DNA of 64,000 bases from Chrysoperla carnea (Eukaryota; Arthropoda; Insecta; Neuroptera; Chrysopidae), in assembly GCF_905475395.1 (NCBI RefSeq), contig NC_058342.1:35236140-35300139 (forward strand). Direction: 5' to 3'. Position 1 is the first letter of the stretch. Each line of letters begins with the position of its first letter. Position numbers and translations under genes: made by a program. Below, in pieces: positions 123-54,553 of the stretch. A model generated the notes under the pieces. That model had not been told where the DNA came from. It worked only from the letters and a program-made list of their open reading frames with translations, and searched no databases.

Positions 123-413
123 GGTTAGGTTAGGTTATATTGGCTGTCCACGAAGGACACACTTAGACTATAGAGAACCTTTGTGATACCATATATGTGT
201 TTTACCACCTTTCCGCTGATAATTTCATTTATCAGCTCCTTAATTTCAACGGCTGAGTGCACCTTGTTCATGCATATACCATGCACTACACCAGCCAATC
301 ACAACTATTAATTAAATTAAATTTTGTTGCGACGGCGGGAATCGAAACCGGCTAATCTAAGCATACCGCGGGCGGAATTGGTTACGCCATAACCAACTGA
401 GTTAATAGGGCGA
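123..413 (-). mobile_element. SINE1 copy a, near full length, tRNA-derived
   Basis: This is a short interspersed element read on the minus strand. Its tRNA-like head lies at the right end (about 327-413), with A-box- and B-box-like promoter segments for RNA polymerase III. The body includes a conserved hairpin (CTGATAAATGAAATTATCAG). The tail at the left end is (TAACC)n, the complement of the insect telomere unit TTAGG. The 9-bp sequence CATTATCAA flanks both sides (114-122 and 414-422), as expected for target-primed insertion. Four further copies in the window confirm the family. The B box is mutated here (TCGAAACC on the plus strand), so transcription is doubtful. Confidence 0.8.
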
Positions 414-3946: not shown

Positions 3947-4830
3947 AACCAATTCCGCCCGCTTAGGGTAGCGGATTCGATTCCCGCCGTCGCAACTAAA
4001 TTAATTTAATTAATAATTGTGATACGCTGGTGTAGTGCATGATATATGCATGAAGGAGGTGCACTCAGCCTCTGAAATTGAGGAGCTGATAAATGGAATT
4101 ATCAGCGGAAAGGTGGTTGTTTCGGACAGTTTGTTAAAAAACTAATGTAATAAAATGAATAACAAATATCTTGGGTCTTTGTCCAACTTATTACTGTGTG
4201 TCCGAAACAGTAATGAATCGTAATTGAAATGAAAAGGACAATTTCGGAATAATTAGATTCAATGCGGAATAATTTCAGAGACTGAACGGAATGAAAATGT
4301 TGGCTCTACAGTCAGATTCATAAAATATCTCGAAAATTACTCATTTAATGGTCAAATAAACACGATTTTTGTAATTTTCGGGTCAAAATTACCTTATAAA
4401 CTTAGTTTTATCGAAATCGGAAACAAAAACTTTTTTTACACTTTTTGCAATTTGTAAAATTCGAAAAAATCATAAAAAATTCAAAAAAACACAATTTTTG
4501 TAATTTTTGGTTGGGTTGGGTTGGGTTGGGTTGGGCTGGGTTGGGTTGGGTTGGGTTGGGTTGGGTTGGGTTAGGTTGGGTTAGGTTGGGTTAGGTTGGG
4601 TTAGGTTGGGTTAGGTTGGGTTAGGCTGGGTTAGGCTGGGTTAGGTTGGGTTAGGCTGGGTTAGGCTGGGTTAGGTTGGGTTAGGTTGGGTTGGGTTGAG
4701 TGTGGGTGTTGGTGTGGGTGTTGGTGTGGGTGTGGGAGTGGGAGTGGCAGTGGCAGTGGCAGTGGCAGTGGCAGTGGCAGTGGGAGTGGGAGTGGGAGTG
4801 GGAGTGGGAGTGAGTTAGGTTTTTTTTTCA
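3947..4830 (+). mobile_element. Composite SINE1 copy b (5'-truncated) carrying telomere-like and G-rich arrays
   Basis: It starts inside the tRNA-like head at AACCAATTCCGCC, keeps a B-box-like segment and the SINE1 body to GGAAAGGTGGT (about 4116), then changes into a second segment beginning TGTTTCGGACAG. This segment includes an AT-rich stretch (4318-4490) related to the 307-bp satellite, then a (TTGGG)n and (TTAGGTTGGG)n array (4509-4697), then (GTGTTG)n, (GTGGGA)n and (GTGGCA)n arrays (4698-4818). The same junction recurs at 41.45 kb. Compared with that copy, this one has about 130 extra bases (near 4145-4275) and lacks the SINE 3' tail. It ends in GTGAGTTAGG followed by a T run. Confidence 0.75.
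4509..4818 (+). repeat. Telomere-like (TTAGGTTGGG)n plus (GTGGGA)n tandem arrays
   Basis: The first half alternates TTGGG and TTAGG pentamers with a few GGCTGGG variants. TTAGG is the common arthropod telomere repeat, but this block is interstitial. The second half is a hexamer array moving through GTGTTG, GTGGGA and GTGGCA variants. The plus strand has many runs of three guanines, so G-quadruplex formation is plausible. Confidence 0.85.
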
Positions 4831-5789
4831 ATTTCATTGATCATTTATAATAGTGTATTATAGTGTTCCTAGCACATGGAGTTTTAACTATAGAAGGTTT
4901 TAAGATTCGACATCGCCGGCTATACGTGCTATGAACTGTTGGGAATAATTTAGTCATATTATTATAATAAAAAGTAGACTTCCATAGTGATTAGTGCTCT
5001 ATAGTGAATTTGGTTTTTCAACGGGGGTTTTTCTTTTGTTTCGTGTATTTATATGTTTGTGAAGTCATATTATTACTCAAGAAATTTTTGTTGATTTTAG
5101 CAAAATTCCATACGAAAATCATATAATAAATTTATTATGTCTATTTGGACACTAATTACTTTATGATTGGTAAACACACATACATTTTTTATACCCTATG
5201 TAAATGTAATTTACACACAGGGTATATTATACAGAGTTGATAATTATTATAGTGGAATAAGAATCTTTAAAAGGTGGATTTAAAAATGAGGTTCTAAATT
5301 CATGCGTTACGGACCCGGATTTTTTCAAAACAAGAAGATATCTTAAATAATATTATGATTTTAACTATTTTTAAAGTATACAGAGTTTAAAATAAACATT
5401 ATGGTGCCCAATCTTACCCTATACACAATTTTACAAATAACAGTATAGCATAATCTACCAGAAAAACGAAATACACAAAATAATATACATATGAACTTCT
5501 TATAAACAAACAAAAATTATATATGTCGAAGGCATCGAATGTACTCGTCATTTTGCTAAATGTCTACAGATATCGAGATCAATTCGAAACCTTGGCGATT
5601 AATTCAAAAACGTTTGAGAAAGTCGGAAAGCAATTTTTCTTTGTAATTTCGATTAAACTATTTTTATGAGTCGAAAATATCGTCAAAAATCGCCTCTAAA
5701 TATAGAATGTTACAGTAGTTCATATGTCGCTGGTTCAAATCCGACTTGAAGAAATACACTTTTTTTAAAATAAACCAATTAGCAGGTAA
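4831..5789. other. Unassigned spacer with a short hairpin
   Basis: No gene or window-level repeat was recognised. At 5191-5225 there is a near-perfect inverted repeat with arms ATACCCT...GTAAAT and ATTTAC...AGGGTAT and a very short loop. Such hairpins occur near ends of some transposons, but no element boundary could be shown. Confidence 0.45.
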
Positions 5790-7984: not shown

Positions 7985-9000
7985 CGATTCCACTGAGAAT
8001 TCATTACCGCCCTCTACTCTTTTCCATCTCGGTCACATACGAAAAGATTAATGTCTCACTACGCTCAATTCGTCAATAAAAAAACTACATCTCCACTGTC
8101 TCCAGAAGTTTTTCTGTGCTTTTTACCCGCAAACAATTAACATCTTTTTGGCTGTGTTAAAATATTTCAAAAAAATTTAACAAAAGACTGTATGTGATGC
8201 TGAGATTATCAACATCAGACAGCCAGTTAAACGGCTCCACAATTGTTCTTCAATTCAACTGTTCAATCTGGCCACAGAATGATCTGATGCGGGTTAATCT
8301 TAGCGTACTTGTACTACCGTCGAGACGAATCGGAACTGTGCCATCAGTGCCCATAGTAATGCGTTCCTCAGATAACCACTTCCAGATCACGTTGAGTATT
8401 GATTGAACAATTGAAAGTGACCAGCTTGCATGAGCTTTGAACCCTAAACCTATGGATTAGAAGGCCAACACTCTACCAAGCAACCACGCTCACCGTTGGG
8501 TATGACAACAAAAAAATATAATAAATATTTTTTGATTTTTGTTCAATTGTAAAATACAAAATATATATTTTGATTTCGTTTAATGATTAAATTGAGTGTG
8601 TATACTTTTGTGCTGTAGTCACTTTGTGTATAGTTATTATTCCTTTCAAGTATGCCGAAGATCAAGTAAACCGATTTATAAAAACTTAGATGGTCGAGGA
8701 TATCAGATGAGATGAAAAGGGTACTTACAAATCTATCATTTTTTGGGACAAATTTTTGGAAATATTTTAATTGAAATTGAAATATTTGAATTGACTTTGT
8801 TCTTTTGAATTATTGTTTCAAATTACCTAATTATCTGACCATTTCACTTTTCGAAATGAATTGAGGCAGGATCATTTCCATGGTAATTATTTATATGTTA
8901 AAATTATATGTCATGCCTTTTCCAAACTGAATCTATTTTGAACATCATCGTCATTTTTTTAGTTTTTTCGGGTACGAAACTCTAAGCTCTTATAAACACT
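7985..9000 (+). mobile_element. R3 element copy 1 (tRNA-Arg-derived), with extended 3' region
   Basis: The core 7985-8660 matches three other copies. It contains a tRNA-like segment on the minus strand (about 8428-8505). In copy 2 that segment folds with loop CTTCTAA, giving anticodon TCT (Arg), and it has a weak B box (GGGTTCAAAGCTC). After the core, most of a 65-80 bp terminal repeat is missing here (only GTAAACCGATTTAT remains near 8668). About 300 bp follow that match 49930-50285 on the opposite strand. A shared 60-residue frame (8194-8406) is conserved between copies only because the DNA is. Confidence 0.7.
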
Positions 9001-14946: not shown

Positions 14947-14954
14947 TTATTTTA

Positions 14955-15150
14955 TATTGGCTGTCCACGAAGGACACACTTAGGCTATAGAGAACCTTTG
15001 TGATACTATATATGTGTTTGACCAACTTTCCGCTGATAATTTCATTTATCAGCTCCTCAATTTCAGAGGCTGAGTGCACCTCCTTCATGCATATATCATG
15101 CACTACACCAGCGTATTACAATTATTAATTAAATTAATTTTGTTGCGACG
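14955..15150 (-). mobile_element. SINE1 copy c, head truncated
   Basis: Body and 3' part of SINE1 in minus orientation, from GGCTGTCCACGAAGGACACA to GTTGCGACGG. The tRNA-like head beyond the acceptor-like TTGCGACGG is missing, and the simple-sequence tail is absent. An 82-residue frame (14855-15103) reads through this element and is an artefact. Confidence 0.75.
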
Positions 15151-15482
15151 GGTGTTAACAAAAGATCTGTTCGATTGAATTTGACTAGACGGATTCAAAT
15201 GCGATTAAACTGTATCGTACGGTTACGGGAGCTTCATGCATGTGTATTTATGTGTGTATGTATATTATTATAAACAGTATAAAATTGTTATTATTCCATT
15301 ATTTAAAACCGCACGGATAAATAAAATACAATACAATTTATTATTTATGTTATTGTTGATGTTTTTCAATATAAAAATTTTTGTTTTATTTAAAACAAAA
15401 ACGTTTAAATTGCGTTTGTTTTAAATTTTATCAACAATATATATTGTATTATATACCTATTAGTCGTGTCATTTTAGCATTT

Positions 15483-31589: not shown

Positions 31590-31690
31590 TAAAAAAGTTT
31601 TGGTTTACTGCACGGTACACACATATATACCAAATATATGCTATGTAGTCAAGCAATGAGTTATTTTTGCAACTACAAAGTGATGCTTAT
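31590..31690 (-). repeat. Dispersed repeat R7, partial copy
   Basis: It matches the terminal segment AAAGTTTTGGTTTATTGCAC and following bases of the copies at 44705 (same strand) and 60970 (opposite strand). It retains GTGATGCTTATAAA and has lost most of the interior. Confidence 0.6.
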
Positions 31691-32522
31691 AAAAAATCGA
31701 AAAAATCGAAAAAATTTTTCTGTTTCGGAATTTGATAAAACTCAGTTTATAAGGGTATTTTGACCCAAAAAATTCAAAAATCGGGTTCATTTAACGATTA
31801 AGCTAGTAGAAGTTTGAAAAAAACGAGTTTTTGGATTGATTTTTGTCGATATCTCAAAAATTAGCCGCGCAATCGTTAAATGAACCCGATTTTTGAATTT
31901 TTTGGATCAAAATACCCTTATAAACTGTGTTTCATCAAATTCCGGAACACAAAATTTTTTTCGATTTTTTGGAATTTTTTGAAGGGGTACCCCTTGAAAA
32001 AAATCGAAAAAATCGAAAAATTTTTTCTGTTTTGGAATTCGATAAAACTCAGTTTATAAGGGTATTTTGACCCAAAAAATTCAAAAATCGGGTTCATTTA
32101 ACGATTGAGCTAGTAGAAGTTTGAAAAAAACGAGTTTTTGGATCGATTTTTGTCGATATGTCAAAAATTAGCCGCCCAATCGTTAAACGAACCCGATTTT
32201 TGAATTTTTTGGGTCAATTATACCTTATAAACTGTGTTTCATCAAATTCTGAAACACAAAATTTTTTTCGATTTTTTGGAATTTTTTAAAGGGGTACCCC
32301 TTGAAAAAAATCGAAAAAATCGAAAAATTTTTTCTGTTTCGGAATCCGATAAAACTCAGTTTATAAGGGTATTTTGACCCAAAAAATTCAAAAATCGGGT
32401 TCATTTAACGATTAAGCTAGTAGAAGTTTGAAAAAAAAACGAATTTTTGGATCGATTTTTGTCGATATCTCAGAAATTAGCCGCCCAATCGTTAAATGAA
32501 CCCGATTTTTGAATTTTTTGGA
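31687..32522 (+). repeat. 307-bp tandem array with long inverted arms
   Basis: Just under three head-to-tail units. The anchor CCCCTTGAAAAAAATCGAAA recurs at a spacing of 307 bp (about 31990 and 32297). Each unit contains an imperfect inverted repeat: TTATAAGGGTATTTTGACCC with AAATCGGGTTCATTTAACGA on one side, and their inverse 80-100 bp later. Units differ by few substitutions. It is related at low similarity to 4318-4490 and 41516-41690 in the composite SINE1. Confidence 0.85.
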
Positions 32523-37841: not shown

Positions 37842-38058
37842 ATTAGGTTAGGTTAGGTTATATTGGTTGTCTACGAAGGACACTCTTAGGTTATAGAGCC
37901 CCTTGTGATAGCATATATGTGTTTTGCCACCGTTTCCATCTTCTCTCTATGTGTTTTACCACCTTTTTCATTTCAAATTTTCAATTATTTTCAAAGATTG
38001 AGTGCACCTCCTTCATGCATATACCATGCACTGCACCAGCTCATCACAACTATTAATT
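37842..38058 (-). mobile_element. SINE1 copy d, diverged, head missing
   Basis: Minus orientation with a (TTAGG)n tail on the plus strand (37842-37859), the GTCTACGAAGGACAC motif and the GAGTGCACCTCCTTCATGCA motif. The hairpin region is rearranged, with a partial duplication of ATGTGTTTT(A/G)CCACC. The tRNA-like head is lost and an R7 copy follows directly. Confidence 0.7.
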
Positions 38059-41204: not shown

Positions 41205-41255
41205 ATAAATGTTTACCCTTGAGTTCGCAAATTAAGTGCAAATTACATAGTATGT
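41205..41255 (-). repeat. R5 dispersed repeat, copy 6, left fragment
   Basis: GTTTACCCTTGAGTTCGCAA matches the R5 motif with consensus GTTTACCCACGAGGGCGCAA. The repeat is broken by the composite SINE1 insertion and resumes at 42320. Confidence 0.55.
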
Positions 41256-41710
41256 CGCCCTATTAGCTCAGTTGGTTAAGGCGTAACCAATTCTGTCCGC
41301 GGTATGATTAGGGTAGCGGGTTCGATTCCCTCCGTCGCAACAAAATTAATTTAGTTAATAGTTGTGAATGATATATGATGAAGGAGGTGCACTCAGCCTC
41401 TGAAATTGAGGAGCTAATAAATGAAATTATCAGCGAAAGGTGGTTGTTTCGGATAGTTGGTTAAAAAACTAATGTTTCAGTGACTGAACGGAATGAAAAT
41501 GTTGGCTTTACTGTCAGATTCATAAAATATCTCGAAAATTACTCATTTAATGGTCAAATAAACACGATTTTTGTAATTTTCGGGTCAAAATTACCTTATA
41601 AACTTAGTTTTATCGAAATCGGAAACAAAAACTTTTTTTACACTTTTTGCAATTTGTAAAAATCGAAAAAATCATAAAAAATTCAAAAAAACACAATTTT
41701 TGTAATTTTT

Positions 41711-41875
41711 GGTTGGGTTGGGTTGGGTTAGGTTGGGTTAGGTTGGGTTAGGTTGGGTTAGGTTGGGTTAGGTTGGGTTAGGTTGGGTTAGGTTGGGTTA
41801 GGTTGGGTTAGGTTGGGTTAGGTTGGGTTAGGTTGGGTTAGGTTGGGTTAGGTTGGGTTAGGTTGGGTCGGGTTG
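41711..41875 (+). repeat. (TTAGGTTGGG)n interstitial telomere-like array
   Basis: Near-perfect decamer repeats, each the arthropod telomere unit TTAGG plus a TTGGG variant, starting with three TTGGG units. The copy at 4509-4697 is more variable. Confidence 0.9.
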
Positions 41876-42232
41876 AGTGTGGGTGTGTTTGTGTTTGTGG
41901 GTGTGGGTGTGGGAGTGGAAGTGGGAGTGGGTGTTGGTGTGAGAGTGGGAGTGGGTGTAGGTGTGGGAGTGGGAGTGGGAGTGGGAGTGGGAGTGGGAGT
42001 GGGAGTGGGAGTGGGAGTGGGAGTGGGAGTGGGAGTGGGAGTGGGAGTGAGTGTGGGAGTGGGAGTGGGAGTGGGAGTGGGAGTGGGAGTGGGAGTGGGA
42101 GTGGGAGTGGGAGTGGGAGTGGGAGTGGGAGTGGGAGTGGGAGTGGGAGTGGGAATGGGAGTGGGAGTGGGAGTGGGAGTGGGAGTGGGAGTGGGAGTGG
42201 GAGTGGGAGTGGGAGTGGGAGTGGGAGTGGGA
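41876..42232 (+). repeat. (GTGGGA)n hexamer array, G-quadruplex-prone
   Basis: After a short GTGTTT/GTGGGT lead-in, the array is an almost pure GGGAGT hexamer with a few variants (GAAGTG, GTGAGT, GGAATG). All plus-strand guanine runs of three are three bases apart. All six reading frames stay open, giving false proteins such as (Gly-Ser)n, (Gly-Val)n, (Trp-Glu)n, (Thr-Pro)n and (His-Ser)n; none is a gene. Confidence 0.92.
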
Positions 42233-42319
42233 AAGGTGGTAAAACACTTATATGGTATCATAATGGGCTCTTTAGCCTAAGTGTGTCCTTCGTGGACAGC
42301 CAATATAACCTAGCCTACG

Positions 42320-42490
42320 TAGTATGTATTATATGGGAATATCAGTTATGTGTATGTGGCTATCTAAGAGTGGATATTTTTCTTTACTTACGTGACGTAA
42401 AAAAAACAAACTATCGCGTAATGAACACTGTCTATACATTGGTATTTCAACAATTTGCTCAGTCAATTGTTTGTTTTCACTTGTTTATAT
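42320..42490 (-). repeat. R5 dispersed repeat, copy 6, right fragment
   Basis: It resumes with TAGTATGTATTATATGGGAA, matching R5 copy 4, and ends ACTGTCTATACATTGGTATT plus the CAGTCAATTGTTTG subterminal motif. Confidence 0.7.
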
Positions 42491-48418: not shown

Positions 48419-49163
48419 TCTCAATCTAGTCGGTTCGACCGTTTAAGGGCTACGATTCCACTGAGAATTCATTACCGTCCTCTACTCTTTTCCATCTCGG
48501 TCATATACGAAAAAAATTAATGTCTTACTACGCTCAATTCGTCAATAAAAAAACTACATCTCCGCTGTCTCCAGAAGGTTTTCTGTGCTTTTTACCCGCA
48601 AACAATTGACATTATTTAGGTGTGTTAAAATATTTCAAAAAATTTAACAAAAGACTGTATGTGATGTTGAGGTTATCAACATCAGACAGCCAGTTAAACG
48701 GCTCCACAATTGTTCTTCAATTCAACTGTTCAATCTGGCCACAGAATGATCTGATGCGGGTTAATCTTAGCGTACTTGTACTACCGTCGAGACGAATCGG
48801 AACTGTGCCATCAGTGCCCATAGTAATGCGTTCCTCAGATAACCACTTCCAGATCACGTTGAGTATTGATTGAACAATTGAAAGTGACCAGCTTGCATGA
48901 GCTTTGAACCCTAAACCTATGGATTAGAAGTCCAACACTCTACCAAGCAACCACGCTCACCGTTGGAAATGACAACAAAAAAATATAATAAAAATTTTTT
49001 GATTTTTGTTCAATTGTAAAATACAAAATATATATTTTGATTTCGTTTAATGATTAAATTGAGTGTGTATACTTTTGTGCTGTAGTCACTTTGTGTATAG
49101 TTATTATTCCTCTCAAGTATGCCGAAGAAATAAGCTGACAAGTGAAATTTACAAAATTTCCAG
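48419..49163 (+). mobile_element. R3 element copy 2 (tRNA-Arg-derived)
   Basis: Full core beginning TCGACCGTTTAAGGGCTACG. The minus-strand tRNA-like segment (about 48900-48965) folds best here: TGGA-CTTCTAA-TCCA gives anticodon TCT for arginine, with D-arm TGGTTGCTTGGTAGAGTG. The right end keeps only the first 25 bp of the terminal repeat (GACAAGTGAAATTTACAAAA). Confidence 0.72.
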
Positions 49164-49929: not shown

Positions 49930-51158
49930 GGTAATTTAACGAAGAGTGTTCTTAGCTATGTTTCATGTGCGACCTTACAGTTTTTTACCCGAAAAAACTA
50001 AAAAATTGACGATGATCTTTAAAATCGATTCAGTTTGGAAAAGGCATGGCATATAATTTTAACATATAAATAATTACTATGGAAATGAATGGTCAAATAA
50101 ACCTGGCTCAATTCATTTCGAAAAGTAAAATGGTCAGAGAATTAGTTAATTCAAAACAATAATTCAAAAGAACAAAGTCAACTCAAATATTTCAATTTCA
50201 ATTAAAATATTTCCAAAAATTTGTCCCAAAATATAATATCCCTCTAAGTATCCTTTTCGTCTCATCTGATATCCTTGACTATCTAAGTTTCCAAAAATCG
50301 GTTTACAAGAAATGAATCGCATTTGTCGGGGGGTTTTTTAAATTTTGTAAATTTCACTTGTCAGCTTATTTCTTCGGCATACTTGAGAGGAATAATAACT
50401 ATACACAAAGTGACTACAGCACAAAAGTATACGCACTCAATTTAATCATTAAACGAAATCAAAATATATATTTTGTATTTTACAATTGAACAAAAATCAA
50501 AAAATGTTTATTATATTGTTTTGTTGTCATTTCCAACGGTGAGCGTGGTTGCTTGGTAGAGTGTTGGCCTTCTAATCCTTTGGTTTAGGGTTCAAAGCTC
50601 ATGCAAGCTGGTCACTTTCAATTGTTCAAATCAATACTCAACGTGATCTGGAAGTGGTTATCTGAGGAACGCGTTACTATGGGCACTGATGGCACAGTTC
50701 CGATTCGTCTCGACGGTAGTACAAGTACGCTAAGATTAACCCGCATCAGATCATTCTGTGGCCAGATTGAACAGTTGAATTGAAGAACAATTATGGAGCC
50801 GTTTAACTGGCTGTCTGATGTTGATAATCTCACCATCACATACAGTCTTTTATTATTTTTTTTGAAATATTTTAACACAGTCAAATAATTGTTTGCGGGT
50901 AAAAAGCACAGAAAAACTTCTGAAGACAGCCGAGATGTAGTTTTTTTATTGACGAATTGAGCGTAGTGTGACATTAATTTTTTCGTATGTGACCGAGATG
51001 GAAAAGAGTAGAGGACGGTAATTAATTCTCAGTGGAATCGTAGCCCTTAAACGGTCAAACCGATTTGATTGAGAACTAAGTTTCCATAAATCGGTTTACA
51101 AGGAATAAATCGCATTTGTAGGGGGTTTTTTAAATTTTGTTAATTTCACTTGTCAACG
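49930..51158 (-). mobile_element. R3 element copy 3, with flanking direct repeats and extended 3' region
   Basis: In element orientation (right to left): a direct repeat of about 75 bp (51080-51155), the core with its tRNA-Arg-like part, a second copy of the direct repeat (50290-50362), then about 350 bp (49930-50285) that also follow the core in copy 1. The direct repeats start with TGACAAGTGAAATT-like sequence and end in CCGATTT(A/T)TGGAAACTTAG, and share a C-run followed by ACAAATGCGATT. On the plus strand the tRNA-like segment (about 50530-50600) has the usual B-box position mutated. Confidence 0.75.
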
Positions 51159-53692: not shown

Positions 53693-54553
53693 AAATTTAC
53701 AAAATTTAAAAAACCCCCCAACAAATGCGATTTATTCCTTGTAAACCGATTTATGGAAACTTAGTTCTCAATCCAGTCGGTTTGACCGTTTAAGGGCTAC
53801 GATTCCACTGAGAATTCATTACCGTCCTCTACTCTTTTCCATCTCGGTCAGATACGAAAAACTTAATGTCCCACTACGGTCAATTCGTCAATAAAAAAAC
53901 TACATCCCCGCTGTCTCCAGAAGTTTTTCTGTGCTTTTTACCCGCAAACAATTGACATCTATTTGGCTGTGTTAAAATATTTCAAAAAATTTAACAAAAG
54001 ACTGTATGTGATGCTGAGAGTATCAACATCAGACAGCCAGTTAAACGGCTCCACAATTGTTCTTCAATTCAACTGTTCAATCTGGCCACAGAATGATCTG
54101 ATGCGGGTTAATCTTAGCGTACTTGTACTACCGTCGAGACGAATCGGTACTGTGCCATCAGTGCCCATAGTAATGCGTTCCTCAGATAACCACTTCCAGA
54201 TCACGTTGAGTATTGATTGAACAATTGAAAGTGACCAGCTTGCATGAGCTTTGAACCCTAAACCAATGGATTAGAAGGCCAACACTCTACCAAGCAACCA
54301 CGCTCACCGTTGGAAATGACAACAAAAAAATATAATTTAAATTTTTTGATTTTTGTTCAATTGTAAAATACAAAATATATATTTTGATTTCGTTTAATGA
54401 TTAAATTGAGTGTGTGTACTTCTGTGCTGTAGTCACTTTGTGTATAATTATTATTCCTCTCAAGTATGCCGAAGAAATAAGCTGACAAGTGAAATTTACA
54501 AAATTTAAAAAACCCCCGACAAATGCGATTTATTCCTTGTAAACCGATTTATG
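53693..54553 (+). mobile_element. R3 element copy 4, bounded by about 65-bp direct repeats
   Basis: The direct repeats lie at roughly 53693-53757 and 54490-54553, both reading AAATTTACAAAATTTAAAAA then C-run, ACAAATGCGATTTATTCCTT and GTAAACCGATTTATG. Between them is the R3 core with the tRNA-Arg-like segment on the minus strand (about 54240-54310). This copy is the best model of the element without its 3' extension, at about 860 bp. The repeats resemble miniature LTRs, but no primer-binding site or polypurine tract is evident. Confidence 0.75.

Follow-up and report, generated by a model that had tools for sequence, protein, structure and literature searches.

A telomere-like array module in SINEs and Helitrons of Chrysoperla carnea and its orientation along chromosome arms

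The composite element at positions 41248-42327 of the window, the 64,000-nucleotide stretch of DNA analysed here (C6:35236140-35300139 of a 559-Mb assembly in 337 contigs), is a tRNA-like SINE containing a multi-part module, hereafter X, with telomere-like and G-rich arrays. The SINE-bearing form of X is confined to 5.4 Mb of C6, X elsewhere lies in different host repeats, and near chromosome ends it predominantly runs outward, that is, with its G-rich strand reading 5' to 3' toward the nearest chromosome end. Transposons are normally insensitive to the direction of the chromosome; this polarity is the surprising part, and ordinary transposition gives no account of it. The explanation put forward here, to which we assign a probability of roughly 45% as a whole, is that an old tRNA-SINE acquired X later, that Helitrons spread X, and that copying by homology ran one way near the chromosome ends.

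Structure of the composite and of module X

The composite (copy A, plus strand throughout) lies between 8-bp target duplications of the resident SINE, TAGTATGT, at 41248-41255 on the left and 42320-42327 on the right. The resident tRNA-SINE, about 82% identical to the other SINEs of the window by blastn, supplies a head and body at 41256-41444, aligned up to the 9-bp sequence AAAGGTGGT (41436-41444). Alignment and script place this 9-bp SINE sequence on both sides of the insert; in the alignment, the only complete ordinary SINE in the window has it a single time. At the SINE-X junction AAAGGTGGT is joined to TGTTTCGG, and X begins at 41445 with an internal piece of a TA-flanked MITE, recognised by sequence comparison (TGTTTCGG...CTAATG, 41445-41474), in which about 125 bp are missing relative to the second copy in the window (copy B). 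It continues with a satellite-like spacer at 41475-41710, 98% identical to positions 4273-4508 and 73-79% to 306/307-bp satellites, and then with two arrays delimited by TRF, the telomere-like decamer (TTAGGTTGGG)n at 41711-41868 (15.8 units, 99% matches) and (GTGGGA)n at 41897-42232 (56 units). The second AAAGGTGGT (42232-42240) opens the SINE tail, which by alignment and script spans 42232-42319 and ends in CCTAGCCTACG. Direct reading, TRF and a script thus bear out the earlier note's description of a tRNA-like SINE with (TTAGGTTGGG)n and GTGGGA arrays between 8-bp TAGTATGT duplications. In the SINE head, TAGCTCAGTTGG and GGTTCGATTCC, spotted by eye, are taken to be the pol III A and B boxes. 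ARAGORN predicted no tRNA at this head; a search of 10 loci with Rfam gave five matches, none reaching its gathering score, and the only matches on SINE heads were to tmRNA families (4 of the 10 loci), likewise below gathering scores.

The earlier note was also right about a copy at 3947 with the matching internal junction. In this copy B, likewise on the plus strand, the aligned SINE head and body occupy 3947-4117 with the first ~30 bases absent, and the junction falls at 4117/4118. By alignment and script, X at 4118-4508 comprises the inner part of the MITE (TGTTTCGGACA ... TGTCCGAAACA, ending at 4209) and the spacer. Its arrays (4509-4812 by TRF) consist of the decamer at 4509-4698 and the hexamer at 4702-4812, and a T-tract, CAATTTCATTGATC and the first bases of Y were recovered by alignment and script at 4820-4851. 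Beyond 4851 the DNA is unlike that of other copies; the SINE tail is absent, and no flanking duplication was seen. Across the family the fuller form reads SINE (1-205), X, arrays, T-tract CAATTTTATTGATC, Y and SINE (about 87 to end), the SINE body occurring twice, with one stretch on either side of X. Copy A is without Y, the second SINE body and part of the MITE piece, all of which other copies have; the 1.06-kb form is a deleted derivative of the fuller SINE-X-Y-SINE form.

The window also holds three ordinary SINEs without X, all on the minus strand and opposite to the composites: one at 125-412, found by blastn and alignment, with a 9-bp duplication TTGATAATG seen by eye, and two recognised by sequence comparison, a 5'-truncated one at 14952-15151 and a degraded one at 37848-38058. 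The SINEs end in (AACCT)n, the complement of TTAGG (for example window 125-412, L005 and L010). A further repeat family has four copies in the window (8146-8445, 48613-48912, 50329-51146 and 53694-54517) and a 136-aa open frame, for which a homologue search at E <= 0.001 returned none.

In general, X consists of a TA-flanked MITE piece followed by a satellite-like spacer, the decamer array and a GTGGG(A/T) array. Solo MITEs flanked by TA occur on both strands (11 places), and solo copies such as L067 show, by eye, terminal inverted repeats GACNTTTTC...GAAAGGTC with TA flanks; the MITE presumably belongs to the Tc1/mariner-like superfamily. The spacer is 73-79% identical to a 306/307-bp satellite found at three chromosome ends and, by TRF and blastn, as a 307-bp tandem repeat resembling the end satellite at window 31686-32522 (no strand assigned), with match scores of 79-100 bits against at most 34.6 for 30 shuffles. 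The three ends with the 306-307 bp satellite are C1 left, C5 left and C6 right (L031, L039, L042), and a 165 bp satellite lies at four ends, namely C2 right, C4 right, C5 right and C3 left (L034, L038, L040, L035); perhaps the two satellites distinguish telomeric from centromeric ends. The right end of C3 (L036) carries a 146-bp satellite interleaved with (GGTTG)n, a telomere-like G-rich array. Neither TTAGGTTGGG nor CCCAACCTAA occurs in the twelve 3-kb ends of C1-C6, two of which read N. By its composition, X would resemble a copied chromosome end.

A local family of SINE-X composites on C6

A pattern search for the SINE-X junction with up to 3 mismatches found 20 places in 559 Mb, all at C6 31.58-37.01 Mb (5.4 Mb) and all on the plus strand. 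The reversed control pattern gave 0 places over the same 559 Mb, which indicates that the junction is not due to chance. The upstream flanks of 17 of the 20 copies, compared all against all, are unrelated, having in common only dispersed repeats whose offsets do not correspond. In seven copies a script located both SINE ends, and it detected matching direct duplications at the ends of four of these, all different (TAGTATGT, TTTGAACTAATTC, TTACACCGT and TTATTTG). The other three of the seven have none, with short matches away from the ends in L002 and L004 and no match in L005. The multiple copies, differing flanks and differing duplications that the earlier note had named as signs of a family were therefore found, and the junction is not restricted to two loci with common flanks. 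Segmental duplication with local expansion of one locus, which would place every SINE-X copy on one arm and one strand as observed, is highly improbable and largely refuted: no colinear flanks lie beside the SINE among the 17 copies, the target duplications are distinct, and the flanks of the Helitron-type copies examined differ too, except for a common continuation in L052 and L053.

The mobile composite family that the earlier note proposed stands as a family of 20 copies with unrelated flanks (17) and differing duplications (4 of 7), but its movement as one 1.06-kb unit is not supported. Under that proposal SINE-X-SINE transcripts would be reverse transcribed and inserted with target duplications, which accords with the unrelated flanks, with the duplications and with the retention of both SINE ends in several composites. 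However, every one of the 20 copies falls in the same 5.4 Mb and on a single strand, whereas ordinary SINE tails, counted by an exact pattern, show no polarity (217 plus, 226 minus); several composites are without the tail or part of the head; X also occurs outside SINEs; and the SINE heads and tails are ~4.5 times more diverged than X while differing from ordinary SINEs by weak majority differences only. Movement as a unit is accordingly quite unlikely.

This difference in age emerges from pairwise divergence with CpG sites excluded and L001, a deleted and unusually diverged copy, dropped. In the composites the SINE head differs by 10.9% (8 copies), the body next to X by 5.0% (13) and the tail by 11.0% (4), and X by 2.4% (16 copies); in ordinary SINEs the values are 9.9%, 5.6% and 9.0% for head, body and tail. 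Composite heads differ from ordinary SINE heads by 10.6%, about as much as from one another. The weak majority differences between the two sets amount to one head position (3 of 6 copies) and two tail positions; at one body position all 13 composites compared read G, whereas 7 of 14 ordinary SINEs read A. Since the query used to collect the two SINE sets came from the body and so depresses body divergence in each, only the jump on the 3' side is clean evidence: in seven copies divergence is 3-5% at positions 121-180, 13-15% at positions 181-270 and 6.4% over the last 14, against 5.5-10% at positions 181-270 of ordinary SINEs. Because the heads are as diverged as those of ordinary SINEs and X differs by only 2.4%, X probably came as a module into SINEs that were already old, instead of travelling inside one. 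Judging from these sequence comparisons, X most likely entered by homology, with a piece of SINE body on each side. The element at 41248-42327 would then be an ordinary old tRNA-SINE that received X afterwards.

A one-base marker defines a C6 sub-lineage of X with 21 places on C6, all on the plus strand and 9 of them without the SINE junction; outside C6 it has two copies, on C4 and C5, both outward. Stepwise local spread, in the sense of isolation by distance, was rejected, since X divergence is unrelated to distance along C6 (Mantel r = 0.09, p = 0.25), which indicates a star-like burst. The SINE-type copies on C6 have at least 24 GTGGGA units in 8 of the 16 measured; in 13 Helitron-type copies GTGGGA occurs 0 or 1 times, and the units are mostly GTGGGT. 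Searches of viral contigs, a set that may omit records near the source genome, gave 0 matches for the junction and for the SINE tail. A circle integrating into SINEs by a single crossover would fit the repeated SINE body; it was set aside as it leaves the orientation unexplained.

Helitron hosts and polarity near chromosome ends

Outside the composites, all eight copies examined elsewhere carry X without a SINE, as do five of six further stretches, in Helitrons. An exact pattern for the Helitron-type variant of X matched 107 places (27 plus, 80 minus; control 0), and the surroundings were examined at 10 of the 107. Two loci, L077 and L079, are complete Helitrons running from TCTGTATA after an A to GTCAGCTAG before a T (A/TC...CTAG/T), with X inside. 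Among the eight copies elsewhere, two reach the Helitron 3' end (L056, L058), L052 and L053 have a continuation in common, and L051, L054, L055 and L057 have the Helitron 5' start with four different stops within or soon after the arrays; only half of the eight therefore look broken off. A stretch that by eye resembles a helicase C-terminal remnant is present in L058 and L075-L080. Three C6 loci (L070-L072) have X and the MITE with neither SINE nor Helitron in ~160 bases upstream. In L053 (C1:902000-903800), one of the eight, X is instead joined, by eye, at the anticodon region to a truncated tRNA-Ser/Leu-like head. Another repeat lies upstream of X in L058, L073, L078 and L080, in the last of which it starts as a second Helitron-like 5' end (TCTATATATATAAAACAAAGTCGTG...); the arrays of L078 and L080 are short, with 132-140 bp to the T-tract.

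Polarity was read from the 100 Helitron-type places listed of the 107; the other 7, by subtraction, are all on the plus strand and follow C6 29.8 Mb in list order. Among the 100 listed, 90 point toward the nearest end, and 87% are found no more than 15 Mb from an end, a zone comprising 34% of the length. Within that zone 82 of the 87 listed places are outward (94%, p = 5e-19), the five exceptions being at C1 1.50 and 1.64 Mb, C2 98.77, C3 91.28 and C4 4.50; more than 30 Mb from any end, 2 of 5 listed places are outward. Seven of the 12 ends (C1 left, C2 left, both ends of C3, C4 left, C5 left and C6 right) account for 86 of the 87 listed terminal copies, and our guess is that the remaining five ends are centromeric. 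A DNA search with X, which scores only the best candidates and gives family counts as lower bounds, returned 37 of 40 outward among the best 40 of 2258 candidates; in these best rows the polarity extends to copies with 99% or more identity. With the Helitron 5' piece of an X copy as query, 40 of 41 rows are outward, several of these loci being already counted above. The outward polarity of X near chromosome ends is almost certainly a real feature. Among the titles and opening parts of abstracts listed by literature searches on the orientation of such repeats along arms, none describes this pattern, which does not prove it to be unpublished.

Ordinary SINEs serve as one control, with 100 listed SINE tails spread evenly along C1; in its first 18 Mb X counts 18 minus and 2 plus against 6 minus and 8 plus for SINEs (Fisher p = 0.006). 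The (TTAGG)8 tracts are outward at 7 of 16 sites among 100 of 192 matches listed, and of those listed only four, 3 of them outward, are in the 15-Mb terminal zone, which makes this a weak comparison. At least one listed TTAGG tract is a SINE tail, at C1:36185746 beside a tail at 36185779. The 5' ends of type-2 Helitrons, at 17 places (10 plus, 7 minus), are outward in nine cases and, within 15 Mb of an end, in 3 of 8. At seven of these 17 places a Helitron 3' end follows 1.4-2.0 kb downstream, and four of the seven are outward, namely 2 of 2 near ends and 2 of 5 in the interior, with X confirmed in L078 and L080. The X arrays were accordingly rejected as a sufficient cause of polarity, since L078, L080 and like places occur in both orientations. 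Helitron 3' ends are outward in 16 of 17 cases near chromosome ends and in 4 of 9 in the interior, and at L075, a terminal Helitron 3' end, X is absent from the 1.9 kb read. Outward 3' ends that include one without X mean that the polarity may not be specific to X there; near ends it may be a property of this group of Helitrons and not of X alone.

In type-1 Helitron copies the 5' arm differs by 1.8%, X by 0.9% and the 3' end by 1.6% (the last from 2 copies). Such similar values across the parts imply that terminal Helitron-type copies may be plain transpositions, in which case the polarity needs another cause. One such cause would act at insertion: single-stranded, G-rich intermediates of Helitron type would enter gaps at replication forks, as bacterial ssDNA transposons (IS200/IS605) do, and terminal forks would run outward. 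The carriage of X by Helitrons and the polarity already present in copies at least 99% identical (37 of 40 best rows) agree with this, and it would cover the SINE, Helitron and MITE-only contexts alike. However, it requires outward forks across 15-28 Mb, whereas the window shows no replication-type strand skew (GC -0.010 +- 0.007, AT 0.004 +- 0.005), and no polarity is seen in the type-2 Helitron 5' ends of the terminal zones (3 of 8 outward); fork-coupled insertion is therefore rather unlikely.

Another cause would be selection after insertion, with inward copies lost either because exchanges between arrays of opposite orientation on different arms yield dicentrics or because outward arrays are useful in end protection or meiotic pairing. 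End clustering together with polarity is the remainder expected from removal by ectopic exchange, and the restriction to one end per chromosome on five of six (bar one copy, C2 98.8 Mb) is like that of C. elegans pairing-centre repeats (PMC4595182). However, interior type-2 places with a downstream Helitron 3' end run in either direction (2 of 5 outward, X confirmed in L080), and selection would have to be strong, as copies of 99% identity or more already show the polarity; this account, too, is somewhat improbable.

The explanation preferred here instead combines an old SINE, later X, spread by Helitrons and one-way copying. Helitrons would have spread X through the genome, and at the right end of C6 homology-driven copying would have placed a local X sub-lineage, with SINE pieces on its flanks, in at least 20 SINEs already resident there. 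For the polarity, repair of a broken arm would start synthesis at its centromere-side end, prime on a repeat common to the donor (SINE, Helitron or MITE piece), pass through X while making the G-rich strand, and switch template after the arrays; copying in the opposite direction, with the G-rich strand as template, would stall. One-way repair with template switching would account for the homology-defined 5' arms, the four broken-off copies, the SINE divergence profile, the end clustering and the outward G-rich strand. As a mechanism for the polarity such break repair is a tentative possibility. It is likewise possible, though doubtful, that whole arms are copied into one way, by a repair or replication process running from the centromere side to the end over 5-28 Mb, which would have written X into unrelated resident repeats and left a strand-polar trace with end-specific sub-lineages. 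Outward growth of the chromosome ends themselves was rejected, since X is flanked on each side by parts of resident SINEs whose duplications match.

Comparison with known systems

A polarity of this kind beside unbiased SINEs would be the footprint of arm-scale directional repair or replication, or of selection acting strongly on which way telomere-like tracts point; with either cause, an ordinary genome assembly would test the behaviour of interstitial telomere-like DNA. The 20 SINE sites provide natural before/after pairs.

The composite resembles human SVA (SINE-VNTR-Alu) in having SINE parts around a GC-rich tandem array within one dispersed repeat. However, LINE-1 carries SVA as one unit to all chromosomes, whereas in the present case the array is younger than the SINE ends and the copies occupy just 5.4 Mb and a single strand. 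In C. elegans, Sanford and Perry reportedly described in 2001 asymmetrically distributed repeats of meiotic pairing regions. The likeness lies in asymmetric repeats in end regions, as outlined in PMC4595182; unlike those repeats, the modules here are ~1 kb and sit inside mobile elements.

C. elegans also has six Helitron-associated satellite families with 345 members, as well as 203 short telomeric satellites that are interspersed (PMC4595182). Those Helitron satellites are internal tandem arrays spread genome-wide by Helitron, as X arrays are carried here (PMC4595182); in contrast to those, the present array is telomere-like, its end-near copies point outward, and the module also occurs in SINEs. 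Interstitial telomeric sequences likewise place telomere-like tracts within chromosomes, frequently next to mobile elements, and in yeast the fork block at such tracts depends on their orientation (PMC6410037); compared with these, the tracts here belong to a defined multi-part module with arm polarity. The telomere motif of Bombus is given in PMC9841428 as TTAGGTTGGGG, which is similar in alternating TTAGG with TTGGG(G). Compared with that motif, the array studied here has a 10-bp unit, is absent from the end stretches of C1-C6 examined, and lies at interstitial positions.
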